This document shows, one piece after another, positions 27,437 through 37,929 of a stretch of 64,000 bases of DNA. The DNA comes from Methanocorpusculum sp. (GTDB lineage: Archaea > Halobacteriota > Methanomicrobia > Methanomicrobiales > Methanocorpusculaceae). Under the pieces are notes generated by a model. That model did not search any database, was not told the origin of the DNA, and was given only the letters and a program-made list of their open reading frames with translations. Every line of letters begins with the position of its first letter. Position 1 is the first letter of the stretch. The position numbers and the translations under genes are program-made. The stretch is taken from assembly GCA_017399555.1 (NCBI GenBank), contig JAFQBW010000050.1:1-64000 (forward strand), read 5' to 3'.

Positions 27437-27907
27437 TTATTCTACCGGGATTTCTTCTCCTTCTTCCTGCTTTACCTTCATGAGGACAAGCTCTAAGACG
27501 CCGTTTCTAAAAACAGCCCGTGCCCCTTCAGCGGTAACTTCTTCCGGCAGAAGGATGGTGCGTTTTCCCGCAGCGGTTCTTCTTTCGCGTAAGTGATAGA
27601 CGCCGGAAGAGACCGTCTCGGTACAGACGGATGTCTGGATGAGCAGGGTTGTCGGGTTGAGCAGTTTTACCGAGACATCCTCTTTGGTCATGCCGGGAAG
27701 GTCACAGGAGATGACTAAGGCCTCATCAGTCTCGGTTAAGTCAACCATGAAGTTTCCGGAGATACGCGGAACAGTATTTCTCACGGTGGTTCTGATATAT
27801 TCCGGTTTCGGCATCACCGAAACGGCACGGGATTCGATATCGGACAGGAAGGAATCAATGGTGTTTCCAATCGATTCAAAACTGAATGCATATGGGGTAA
27901 GTGACAT
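27437..27907 (-). CDS. hsp20: Hsp20/alpha-crystallin small heat shock protein
   Basis: An ATP-independent chaperone of 156 residues that holds unfolding proteins. The alpha-crystallin domain (about 45-140) shows VDLTETDEALVISCDLPGM and the closing A-x-x-x-NGVLEL motif (RAVFRNGVLELVL). Its promoter has a TATA box (about 27962-27972 on this strand) followed at once by the palindrome CTTAC-N5-GTAAG, which also lies before the ArsR-type regulator at 35834. Heat induction by release of a repressor is therefore likely. Confidence 0.94.
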   Translation of the reverse strand: MSLTPYAFSFESIGNTIDSFLSDIESRAVSVMPKPEYIRTTVRNTVPRISGNFMVDLTETDEALVISCDLPGMTKEDVSVKLLNPTTLLIQTSVCTETVSSGVYHLRERRTAAGKRTILLPEEVTAEGARAVFRNGVLELVLMKVKQEEGEEIPVE

Positions 27908-27942: not shown

Positions 27943-27972
27943 GACTTACTAATAGTAAGTCATATTTATTTA
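27943..27972 (-). promoter_or_regulatory. hsp20 promoter with heat-shock-type palindrome
   Basis: The perfect inverted repeat GACTTACT-AAT-AGTAAGTC (27943-27961) contains CTTAC-N5-GTAAG and lies between the TATA box (AAATAAATA on the minus strand) and the expected transcription start near 27942. The layout matches heat-shock repressor sites in other archaea, where the repressor blocks the start site. Confidence 0.65.
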
Positions 27973-28043
27973 AGTAGTTTTTCGAAACGGCAAAAAGAAG
28001 AGAGGAAGGTGTTTATGATAAGAAAGAGAAATTATATACACAC

Positions 28044-28679
28044 ATGGCTGTACAGAAGAAAACAAATGCCGGTGACAAGCCGGCGGAAGAGAAGAAAACC
28101 AACTGGATGCAGATTGGTGTAATCGCATTCTGTATCCTGATGGTTGTTATGTGCGTTCTCTCGTTCGCAAACTTCCAGAACTTCTTCGGCGGAGGAGGAA
28201 CTGCCGGACCGGCAGAAGCAGGAAACCCGGTTGCCGTTCAATATACCCTGTTCATTGGAGAATCCCCGGTCTTTACCAACGTTGACGGATTCATCGCAGG
28301 ATACGAAGTAAACGAAAGCGCCTACATCTCTGTTGCAAACAAGACCGAGCCGTACATCCTCTACGCATCTGAACAGAATGCAATCGCAAACGGTGTTATC
28401 GGTATGAACATCGGGGAAAGCAAGACCGTTGACGGTTCCGGCGCGGCCCTGAAACTGACCTACCCGAAGGCAGATGTCGAGAAAATGGGACTGAAGTTCG
28501 CAGAACTTGAAGTCGGAGATATGCTGCAGTTATCCTTCCCGTACATTGACGAACTTGATGAAGTGGCAAACGGATTCCGCTCCGCAATTATCACCGAAAA
28601 GACCGCAGAGAATATTACAGTCCAGTACGGTACCGACAAGATTGTCATGCAGTTTGTCGGATACATGCAGATTGCATAA
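28044..28679 (+). CDS. Membrane-anchored FKBP-type peptidyl-prolyl isomerase-like protein
   Basis: A 211-residue protein with a charged N-terminus, one membrane helix (about residues 23-43) and an outer domain. VAVQYTLFIGESPVFTN and GVIGMNIGESKTV, then LTYPKADVEKMG, match the core and flap parts of FKBP-type isomerases of the SlyD kind. Some catalytic aromatic residues are not obvious, so activity is uncertain and a chaperone role is possible. It is divergent from hsp20 with a gap of 136 bases. Eight T follow the stop. Confidence 0.72.
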   Translation: MAVQKKTNAGDKPAEEKKTNWMQIGVIAFCILMVVMCVLSFANFQNFFGGGGTAGPAEAGNPVAVQYTLFIGESPVFTNVDGFIAGYEVNESAYISVANKTEPYILYASEQNAIANGVIGMNIGESKTVDGSGAALKLTYPKADVEKMGLKFAELEVGDMLQLSFPYIDELDEVANGFRSAIITEKTAENITVQYGTDKIVMQFVGYMQIA

Positions 28680-33662: not shown

Positions 33663-34241
33663 GTGACTGACAGGCCGGATCGCAGATTTCTCCGTACAGA
33701 AAAGCTCATCAAAGCTGCATTCATTAGTCTGCTTGCTGAAAAGAGCTTTGCAGACATCTCCATCAGCGATATTGCAGAGCGGGCAGAAATCGGACGCGGT
33801 ACATTCTACAAACATTATGCGGATAAGCATGCACTTCTTTCATCCTTTGAGGAACGTATCAGACAGGATCTGGAACAGAAACCATACCCGAAGTTCATGC
33901 AAAACCGCGAAGACTATGTGCGGAAAAAGATTCTCTACCGTTATCAGTACTTTGCAGAGCACATTGATATGATGCGCTCTCTTTTCGGACCAAACGGTGA
34001 CGCAGCATTTCAGCAGCGAATGCGGGATTTTATCTGGAAAGACCTCTATATTGAAGAGGATGAGGTTGCGCTCGTTGTGAGAAGAGACAAAATCCCGCCG
34101 GAATATGTGAGTATTATCAATACCACTGCCTCCTTTGTCTTTGATGTCTGGCTGAAGAAGGAAAATCCCGAGTCACCGGAGGAAATTGTGGATATTATTG
34201 TCCACATGACAGGTCTTGCAAAGTATAAAATTCTCGATTAA
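33663..34241 (+). CDS. TetR/AcrR family transcriptional regulator
   Basis: A 192-residue TetR protein with GTG start and helix-turn-helix at about 25-55 (SFADISISDIAERAEIGRGTFYKHY), very typical. The C-terminal domain resembles the TetR_C_7 type (AcrR-like). It follows the SDR gene and precedes two exporter genes, so it may control one or both; the divergent region upstream of the SDR contains a candidate operator. A T-run (TATTTTTTA) just before its start may partly separate it from the SDR gene. Confidence 0.9.
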   Translation: MTDRPDRRFLRTEKLIKAAFISLLAEKSFADISISDIAERAEIGRGTFYKHYADKHALLSSFEERIRQDLEQKPYPKFMQNREDYVRKKILYRYQYFAEHIDMMRSLFGPNGDAAFQQRMRDFIWKDLYIEEDEVALVVRRDKIPPEYVSIINTTASFVFDVWLKKENPESPEEIVDIIVHMTGLAKYKILD

Positions 34242-35780: not shown

Positions 35781-35788
35781 GAGAAAGA

Positions 35789-35820
35789 TTATATTATCTG
35801 AAACACTTACATTATGTAAG
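35789..35820 (+). promoter_or_regulatory. Promoter and operator of the ArsR-type regulator
   Basis: TTATATTA (35789-35796) is the likely TATA box. The perfect palindrome CTTACAT-T-ATGTAAG (35806-35820), which contains CTTAC-N5-GTAAG, covers the expected transcription start. The same 5-5-5 pattern occurs at the hsp20 promoter. Confidence 0.65.
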
Positions 35821-35833
35821 CAGGTAATTAAAC

Positions 35834-36487
35834 ATGTTTGAACAGGAACATATCGCCCAGCTTCTCGACATCCTGGGAAACCGGAACAGAAGACGTATTA
35901 TTGAGCTTCTGCGGTACAAGCCATGTTTTGTTACAGAAATATCCGACCGGCTTTTGCTGAACCCGAAGACGGTCATTGAACATCTGGCACTGATGCAGAA
36001 GGAGGATGTGGTCTCGTTCTATCAGGATGAGAAACGCAGGAAATATTATTATCTGATTCAGGACTTCAGGCTGTCTGTCGAGATGCAGCCGAAAGAGGAT
36101 CCGGTGCAGGCTGCAGAGGAGAAAAAGGAGGAAGAGACGTTCCAGATTCTGCCGCTGATGGATAAAATCGGACAGATTAAGAGTCTGCTTGATGCCCGCG
36201 AGAAGCTTATCGAGCATCTGGATGCGGTAGAGAAGGATATTGATGATAAGATGGAGGAGGTAATGACCGGCGGCCGGGATGTTTTGAAGAACAACCTGGA
36301 AGCAGAGATTCTCCTCTCGCTGATTTACTCTCCGCTGACACCGATTGAAATATCCGATACAATCGGCCGCAGTATTCCGGATGTAACAGCCTCCCTTCGC
36401 TCGCTTGCATCACAGGGATATCTGGAAGCACATGCCGGCAGATACTCGCTGATCGAACCAAAGAAGCCGGCGGCAAAGATGCTCTGA
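35834..36487 (+). CDS. ArsR-type winged-helix regulator, possible heat-shock repressor
   Basis: A 217-residue DNA-binding protein. Residues about 6-75 form an ArsR winged helix (LLDILGNRNRRRIIELLRYKP, then ISDRLLLNPKTVIEHLALMQKE). A middle coiled coil follows, and a second winged-helix-like part lies at about 155-210 (LTPIEISDTIGRSIPDVTASLRSLASQGYLEAH). The palindrome in its own promoter recurs before hsp20, so it may be a heat-shock regulator like HSR1 of Archaeoglobus, an ArsR-type protein reported to bind CTAAC-N5-GTTAG. That equivalence is inference. It shares TGATG with the DUF371 gene. Confidence 0.85.
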   Translation: MFEQEHIAQLLDILGNRNRRRIIELLRYKPCFVTEISDRLLLNPKTVIEHLALMQKEDVVSFYQDEKRRKYYYLIQDFRLSVEMQPKEDPVQAAEEKKEEETFQILPLMDKIGQIKSLLDAREKLIEHLDAVEKDIDDKMEEVMTGGRDVLKNNLEAEILLSLIYSPLTPIEISDTIGRSIPDVTASLRSLASQGYLEAHAGRYSLIEPKKPAAKML

Positions 36488-36912
36488 TGGAAGTAACCGA
36501 GGTCATCCACTGCCGCGGTCATGAAAATGTCCGGGCATTCCATAAGAGTACGTTTGAGATTACCAAAGAGACCGAACTCTCGCCGAAAGGTGACTGTATT
36601 ATTGCAGTCGGCGCAGACAAAGGCGCGGCTGATTTGTCCCCGGAGTTTCGGGAACTGATGGCAAAGGAAGGCTCCCGGCTGACCGCAGTGTTTTCTGCCG
36701 GAGGCATCACCGCAACGGTTACCGCAGACGGGGGAGCAGGTATCTGCCTGACGCATCCAACCGACCTTGTCTGGCGGCGAAGCTCGTTTGTGTGCCCCAG
36801 AACCATTGGTGTCTATGCAGATGCAACCGCAGCTCTTCTGCCGCGGGAGTTAATTGCAGTACTGCAGACCGGCGCGGAAATGACCGTGACGCTTACGGTC
36901 TCTGCTGAATAA
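36487..36912 (+). CDS. DUF371 family protein
   Basis: A 141-residue archaeal protein. The start (EVIHCRGHENVRAFHKSTFEITKE) and the block DCIIAVGADKGAADLS are typical of DUF371, a small beta-rich family conserved in archaea and without known function. It is coupled to the ArsR-type regulator by a one-base overlap (TGATG), so both are expressed together; a link with stress response is possible but unproven. Confidence 0.85.
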   Translation: MEVTEVIHCRGHENVRAFHKSTFEITKETELSPKGDCIIAVGADKGAADLSPEFRELMAKEGSRLTAVFSAGGITATVTADGGAGICLTHPTDLVWRRSSFVCPRTIGVYADATAALLPRELIAVLQTGAEMTVTLTVSAE

Positions 36913-36954: not shown

Positions 36955-37929
36955 TTAATTCTGCATTTTTATCTGCTGGCCTTTTATCATCGGGTAACTG
37001 ACCAGCATGTCGGAATCAAGGTCTTCTTTGTGCATATCAACAGCTGAGATCTGACTGTTTTCATAGGTGGTGTAGTAGAAGATTCCTTTATCCGTGTTAC
37101 AGCATGAGGTATAGATGGTATATTCGTATTTATCCTGTCCCAGATGTACTAAACCGCGCTGCTGTGCAACGGAACCTAAAATCTGGAAGAACTGACTGAT
37201 GCTTTCCGATTCGGATGTGCCCGATACGGAATTGAGACGGGTGAAAGCAGCTTTGATGAACCGGGAGTTGGAGGAAAGGTCTCCGGGGAGACCAATTGCC
37301 CCCATACCCCGGCTGTAGGTTTCGAGAGTGAGGTGTGGAGAGAAAGAGTTTGTCGGAGGATTGGACGAGAGTGACATGCAGTTGTTTAAGGAGAACATCT
37401 GCATGTCGAATGTCGGGTTGTTGGTCATTACATGGACCGGGTTTTCGTAGACTTTCAGGCCTTCCCTGACAGATTCCACAACAATTGCGGAACTGCGGTC
37501 GGCAATCATCCAGTGGAGCGGGGAGAGTGGTAAGGTATCGCTGAAGGGGAGGGCTATGATATTGATATTGGCGAGGATGGATTTGGCTTCGGACACACTT
37601 GAGCACTGGCCGAGAATGTACGGTATCAGTTCGAAGGGTGTGATGTTCTTTTTGCCGGGTACTTCCGGTTTATAGTCGGCGTTTCCCGGGAAGTTGAGTC
37701 CGGCAATCCCGAGTCCCTTTTCGTTTACGGCATCATAGTAGAGCGGGTAGTTGTCTACTACAAAGGCAACACCGATTATGGCATAGTGGGAGGTCATTTC
37801 CTCGGATTTGCGAAACGTAAACGGATAGTTCCTCGGGGTGACCGTGATAGTCTCGTTGTACGAGTACTCAAGGTCGAGGTTGCGTCCGAAGTAGTGGTCG
37901 GCAGTTTGGTAATCCAAGGCGGTACACAT
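36955..37929 (-). CDS. Linear amide C-N hydrolase (bile salt hydrolase/penicillin V acylase family)
   Basis: A 324-residue N-terminal nucleophile hydrolase. Cys2 after the initiator Met (MCTALDYQTADHYFGRNLDLEYSY) becomes the nucleophile, and the Arg in FGRNLD and the Asp that follow match the family. NEKGLGIAGLNFPG, MTNNPTFDMQ and SRFIKAAF are further typical blocks. Relatives split bile salts, penicillin V or N-acyl homoserine lactones. In a methanogen a bile salt hydrolase would suit a gut host; the substrate cannot be decided here. A TATA box lies about 38006-38019 and a GGAG site precedes the ATG. Confidence 0.9.
   Translation of the reverse strand: MCTALDYQTADHYFGRNLDLEYSYNETITVTPRNYPFTFRKSEEMTSHYAIIGVAFVVDNYPLYYDAVNEKGLGIAGLNFPGNADYKPEVPGKKNITPFELIPYILGQCSSVSEAKSILANINIIALPFSDTLPLSPLHWMIADRSSAIVVESVREGLKVYENPVHVMTNNPTFDMQMFSLNNCMSLSSNPPTNSFSPHLTLETYSRGMGAIGLPGDLSSNSRFIKAAFTRLNSVSGTSESESISQFFQILGSVAQQRGLVHLGQDKYEYTIYTSCCNTDKGIFYYTTYENSQISAVDMHKEDLDSDMLVSYPMIKGQQIKMQN

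Follow-up and report, generated by a model that had tools for sequence, protein, structure and literature searches.

The regulators that control the heat-shock response of archaea have been described in few cases, and the passages of a 2022 review on which we draw name only Phr and HSR1 (PMC9133787), which another study groups in arCOG01684 (PMC5852551). Phr is described in these sources as a repressor acting at the start site of hsp20 and of its own gene (PMC9133787; PMC10746257), and the review passages list TTTA, TGGTAA and AAAA blocks as required by the protein and name no RNA among its targets. The same passages associate a CTAAC-type motif with HSR1 alone among the heat-shock regulators of archaea, place hsp20 downstream in its gene arrangement and state that little is known of its mechanism (PMC9133787). 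The kind of circuit that we discuss below is already known. In the open-access literature, which does not extend to the original HSR1 study published by subscription, we found neither a changed operator accompanied by a change at the recognition helix nor an RNA-like target.

Our analysis started from a stretch of 64,000 nucleotides, here called the window, of a Methanocorpusculum genome (G000) that comprises 2,024,668 bases (2.02 Mb) in 67 contigs and is 92.66% complete. An earlier interpretation of this DNA, termed the sequence-only reading, had pointed to a pair of palindromes of the form CTTAC-N5-GTAAG that are alike in arms and spacing and located just downstream of a TATA box. Both are present, at 27945-27959 (CTTACTAATAGTAAG) and 35806-35820 (CTTACATTATGTAAG), as the only two exact copies in the window, compared to a mean of 0.01 in 100 dinucleotide shuffles. 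In each case, a TATA-like box with the orientation of the downstream gene is located about 10 nt ahead of the palindrome. The arms of both sites are longer than initially described, each site being a complete 15-mer in which a single central base separates arms of 7 bp. Since the window contains 14 palindromes of such kind with 7-bp arms, where about 3.9 are expected from composition, it is the shared letters of the two sites and not their palindromy that is special.

In one of the two promoters, a TATA-like box read from the sequence (ATTATATTA, ~35788..35796, plus strand) is followed by the putative operator at 35806..35820, which has at least 9 of the 10 letters conserved in 23 of 25 genomes of the genus, and by the gene of an ArsR-type regulator of 217 residues (35834..36487, plus strand; Pfam HTH_5, 2.4e-11), which would control its own expression via this palindrome. 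A TATA-like stretch at similar spacing was recognized by eye in nearly all regulator promoters that we compared. In the other promoter, which is oriented along the minus strand, the TATA-like box, equally read from the sequence (CTTAAATA, within 27963..27974), precedes the putative operator at 27945..27959 (CTTACTATTAGTAAG on the minus strand), which matches at no less than 9 of 10 letters in 21 of 22 hsp20 loci of the genus, and the gene hsp20 (27437..27907, minus strand; Pfam PF00011, 4e-10) encoding a small heat-shock protein of 156 residues. Divergent from hsp20, the region 28044-28679 encodes a 211-residue protein with N-terminal membrane anchor, and similar-looking genes occupy the equivalent place in several sister genomes (L135, L148-L150, L152, L154).

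The regulator combines an N-terminal ArsR-type domain with a C-terminal TrmB-like winged helix. The best match of its profile in the PDB, and thus its best structural relative by sequence, is the entry 2p4w (annotated as ArsR family, E 9.8e-21, profile positions 5-198), which we take to be Phr of Pyrococcus furiosus. Among NCBIfam models the best hit is Phr_regulator (NF053602, E 3.4e-16), where the 59.4 bits obtained do not reach the cut-off of 320 bits; this model is of the type 'exception' and the missed cut-off excludes Phr proper but not the wider family. The alignment with HSR1 that had been proposed in the sequence-only reading is in line with such a relationship, with 30% identity over 208 residues (E 1e-24) to a homologue at an HSR1-type locus (L245) of an Archaeoglobus-type genome (G132; 2,178,400 bp). 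The relation to the HSR1/Phr heat-shock regulators extends over the DNA-binding domain and beyond, and it is accompanied by a conserved operator at the protein's own promoter and at hsp20. Relatives of the regulator were found in 60 of the 61 searched genomes of the order, one of them as fragment of 25 residues, and in 174 of 196 genomes of the phylum.

The Archaeoglobus-type locus displays the palindrome CTAACATAAAGTTAG behind the letters TATATA and ahead of the regulator homologue, which is followed by the genes of a Cdc48-type ATPase of 733 residues and an Hsp20 of 174 residues, which corresponds to the arrangement of the HSR1 operon with its cdc48. Among 13 loci of the phylum that were read, exact CTAAC-N5-GTTAG is found in all five with the order regulator-cdc48-hsp20 and in none of the eight others. 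The system of the window resembles HSR1 of Archaeoglobus fulgidus in its homologous regulator, in a palindrome of equal arms and spacing behind a TATA box and in its predicted targets, which comprise its own gene and hsp20, with a Cdc48-like gene as a possible further member. It differs in the letters of the operator, which are CTTAC-N5-GTAAG in this genus instead of CTAAC-N5-GTTAG, in an asparagine at a place where the homologue at L245 carries an alanine, and in its organization, with scattered genes in place of the operon HSR1-cdc48-hsp20 and an RNA-like unit as an additional predicted target. A 5-N5-5 palindrome and an RNA-like unit also set it apart from Phr as portrayed in the review passages.

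The altered letters of the operator are a feature of the genus. We compared the promoters of the regulator in 60 genomes, 25 from Methanocorpusculum and 35 from other members. Within the genus, CTTAC-N5-GTAAG is matched at 10 of 10 letters in 15 promoters, at 9 in eight and at only 6-7 in two (G022 and G024). Conversely, none of the 35 other promoters contains CTTAC in its best window, while nine carry exact CTAAC-N5-GTTAG and most of the remaining ones display CTAAC on the left side and a weaker match on the right. An equivalent pattern is found in 59 hsp20 loci, a set from which 11 further matches to extra or partial copies were left out. Here, 21 of the 22 loci of the genus match CTTAC-N5-GTAAG at 9 or more letters (12 exactly), the exception being a locus without site in G015, whereas 23 of the 37 other loci match CTAAC-N5-GTTAG at this level (nine exactly) and 14 are below it. 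As judged from shuffling, a score of 9/10 would be reached in about 0.5 to 5% of cases in a stretch of 256 bases. No exact copy of CTAAC-N5-GTTAG is contained in four genomes of the genus that were searched for it, including that of the window. Since the CTTAC form is found at both promoters in the genus and CTAAC-like forms in its relatives, the sequences of the two promoters differ from their counterparts in the same way, with a presumed direction of change. The claim of an HSR1 counterpart with a shifted operator that controls itself and hsp20 was in this respect borne out by comparison, as the CTTAC form is confined to the genus and present at both of its promoters. Other occurrences of the CTAAC form were also encountered. 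In one sister genus (L140, L142-L144, L146), a longer palindrome centred on CTAACA-N3-TGTTAG with AT-rich flanks precedes the gene of a membrane protein of 128-130 residues, which we set aside as probable site of another regulator, and in G034 (L134 near 1500) an exact CTAAC-N5-GTTAG is separated by 87 bases from a downstream gene whose product, judged by eye, resembles an HtrA-type protease, a possible further stress target.

The change in the operator is paralleled by a change in the protein. In an AlphaFold model, which is weak in the N-terminal half (with block means of 34 to 64) and was used for helix limits only, the recognition helix starts at residue 44, placing Asn 43 immediately in front of it. 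Asn 43 and Gln 55 occur together in all 24 readable proteins of the genus, the 25th (G023) being cut by its contig, whereas all 35 other proteins contain Ser 43 and Glu 55. Both residues lie at or in the recognition helix. Because their coincidence with the operator letters is a correlation with n=1, in effect representing one event on the tree, we regard it as a lead and not as proof, and the cause of the change may be located elsewhere in the protein.

The number of sites in the genome does not by itself reveal this relationship. Exact CTTAC-N5-GTAAG is found four times in the whole genome, the same as a reversed control pattern, and if one mismatch is allowed, the 38 sites are fewer than the 69 obtained for the control. 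Similarly, CTAAC-N5-GTTAG is not enriched in 41 genomes of the order (31 sites compared to 46 for the control), with at least 14 of the 31 sites residing at promoters of the regulator (6) or hsp20 (8). With exact counts that equal the control and one-mismatch counts below it, frequency alone proves nothing, and we have rejected it as an argument; the evidence instead consists of position and conservation. A genome-wide clustering of hits near stress genes, which had been suggested as check in the sequence-only reading, was accordingly observed only after adding these two properties, and not for the exact arms as such. Besides the two sites in the window, one exact site leads to an RNA-like unit and the last (C17:11290) was rejected as regulon member, as it shares its surrounding letters with C39:13083 and C63:17808. 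At these three places (L001, L264, L275) common letters around CTATATACTTACA are followed by a GTAAG-like arm, and they constitute a small repeat family that is unrelated to the heat-shock operator.

Among the 34 sites with one mismatch, 33 were judged together, 26 of which are located inside an open frame of at least 100 codons, whereas the last (C45:60868, in the window) was judged from its sequence. Two sites show both the TATA spacing and a gene. At C50:73, CTTACCTAAAGTAAA (9 of 10 letters) is found behind TTTAAATA and 37 bases before the gene of a tandem-AAA ATPase, whose N-terminus looks Cdc48-like by eye. This N-terminal part has close relatives in five of 61 genomes; for four of these the promoter is contained in the contig, and all four promoters share an identical site. 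At C34:26773 (L263 near 373), CTTCCATAAAGTAAG, which contains one mismatch and has a similar spacing to a TATA box, is located 17 bases before a desulfoferrodoxin gene, a lead to an oxidative-stress gene that is possibly part of the same circuit.

A further predicted target emerged from searches with CTTACTAWTAGTAA in the 25 genomes of the genus, which identified 28 distinct places in 17 genomes and none for the reversed control. Fourteen of these places are hsp20 promoters, the other 14 precede an RNA-like unit, and none is located elsewhere. At the latter loci, a TATA box is followed after about ten bases by the palindrome and then by up to about 300 bases, all situated between longer open frames. 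Similarity searches and inspection added three cases in which the palindrome is varied (G013, G017 and G006). The unit is thereby present in 17 of 25 genomes, and none of the 12 genomes with a completeness of 90% or more lacks it. By sequence, four groups of units can be distinguished, one of which (D) contains a single member. Units of different groups could not be aligned here, and from the shared promoter we infer that they represent one kind of RNA.

The properties of these units suggest a non-coding RNA that is structured and measures roughly 110-300 nt. With ends set by hand, all 17 units fold more stably than shuffled sequences (z of –2.1 to –5.9). The mean z is –3.83 on the transcribed strand and –1.49 on the opposite strand, with the transcribed strand being stronger in 15 of 17 cases, compared to –0.15, –0.52 and –0.56 for 250-base controls from 15 hsp20 messages, 14 upstream and 14 downstream stretches, respectively. 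In the six sequences of group C, 13 of 46 pairs have changed on both sides, with six of these 13 located within a single helix, whereas shuffles give 4.8; the structure was derived from the same alignment in which the changes were counted. In group B such double changes concern only 3 of 28 pairs. Compensatory changes support a structure in one of the four groups, namely C. The search of nine loci from eight of the 17 genomes against Rfam 15 has not identified any match within the unit at E values up to 1. Fifteen of the 17 units contain the pentamer CCTCC, with a total of 23 copies compared to 6.2 expected; 15 of the 23 have a mean unpaired probability of at least 0.5, and about five overlap the end of a converging gene in group B.

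Group A (L133, L129, L130, L079) contains a box of 20 bases (CATACAGATATCTCCCCTGA) that is identical in three of its four members, whereas the fourth contains a version shortened by one base. In the reverse direction, this near-invariant box becomes GGGGAGATATCTGTATG, which resembles a fair ribosome-binding site with a start codon. The latter would be expected if the third unit were to consist of small genes on either strand, with the C-rich stretches being ribosome-binding sites of genes on the opposite strand. This view is also favored by an opposite-strand frame of 89 residues in the genome of the window, by a transcribed-strand frame of 19 residues in three of five listed genomes of group C, with a longer variant in a fourth, and by the consensus folds of groups A and B, which are more stable on the opposite strand. 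We nevertheless consider it unlikely, since the groups do not share any open frame on the transcribed strand, the TATA box and operator point the other way, and both the folding of single sequences in 15 of 17 units and the compensatory changes in group C argue for an RNA read from the transcribed strand. In bacteria, small RNAs under the control of a regulator, such as the streptococcal csRNAs, mask ribosome-binding sites. The RNA-like unit shares with these the predicted properties of being short and structured, with its own promoter under one regulator and CCTCC stretches, and it differs in its archaeal origin; we know of no relationship in sequence. It is conceivable, albeit doubtful, that a heat-shock repressor of archaea would control a genus-wide small RNA acting on translation. 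On heating, this RNA would be released along with hsp20, and its exposed CCUCC stretches would cover ribosome-binding sites and thus slow protein synthesis during the production of chaperones. Within the window, a search for the complement of the group A box identified one site with three mismatches, compared to 0.11 sites expected and at least one in 10 of 100 shuffles.

Taken with the homology of the regulator, the described sites very probably reflect a heat-shock repressor circuit of the HSR1/Phr type, with CTTAC-N5-GTAAG as operator, an asparagine in place of serine before the recognition helix and the RNA-like unit as third target. By analogy with Phr and HSR1 (PMC9133787, PMC10746257, PMC5852551), a dimer of the regulator would at growth temperature occupy the palindrome immediately downstream of the TATA box, where transcription is expected to start, and exclude RNA polymerase. 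At higher temperature it would let go, and its own gene, hsp20, possibly the gene of the Cdc48-like ATPase, and the RNA-like unit would be switched on. Repression at the start site would agree with the location of the sites, which closely follow the TATA box. The palindromes could alternatively bind another regulator of similar taste, be it the product of a TetR gene at 33663, which ends 1.6 kb away, or an unlisted factor, with the ArsR-type gene being one more target, and this is favored by the proximity of the TetR gene and by the CTAAC-type palindromes with different flanks in front of an unrelated membrane protein in the sister genus mentioned above. Such a scenario appears improbable, because the site precedes the gene of the regulator itself across the order and at all five Archaeoglobus-type loci, which also contain cdc48 and hsp20, and because the review passages list no archaeal heat-shock regulator with this motif other than HSR1 (PMC9133787). 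Finally, short AT-rich palindromes near start sites could be due to chance or a general feature of promoters, as the equal numbers of exact arms and control patterns in the genome would permit, an explanation to which we attribute hardly any weight given that orthologous promoters over many genera conserve the site at similar spacing to the TATA box and that all 28 CTTACTAWTAGTAA sites in the 25 genomes are confined to two kinds of place, with none for the control.

If organized as proposed, a circuit of the HSR1 type could be followed across an order of methanogens, one genus of which deviates cleanly in the letters of its operator and offers a candidate residue for this deviation. Specificity is thereby open to tests in which one or two residues and two bases are exchanged. 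If the RNA-like unit is a target, the heat-shock response of archaea would gain a post-transcriptional branch.

Two other candidate components of the circuit fared less well. The DUF371 protein (36487..36912, plus strand; Pfam PF04027, 2.1e-48), whose gene overlaps the stop codon of the regulator by one base, was thought to belong to the circuit by operon. It is probably co-transcribed with the regulator here and the arrangement recurs in part of the genus, but in flanks ranging from ~1.5 kb or less to several kb, DUF371 adjoins the regulator in only eight of 62 loci, corresponding to eight of 24 in the genus and none of 38 in others of order and phylum. We have thus rejected it as conserved and stable part of the circuit. 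A clustering of sites before hsp60, for which the sequence-only reading had proposed to look, was not found in the promoters of 29 chaperonin loci, which contain no operator (with 8/10 as best score). For these promoters the start codons were assigned by a simple rule, and the set does not include another 18 matches to chaperonins. Downstream of DUF371, the region 36955-37929 encodes a protein of the choloylglycine (bile salt) hydrolase family (E 1.5e-103), which would fit a gut archaeon, and the named relatives of the genome are from animal guts.
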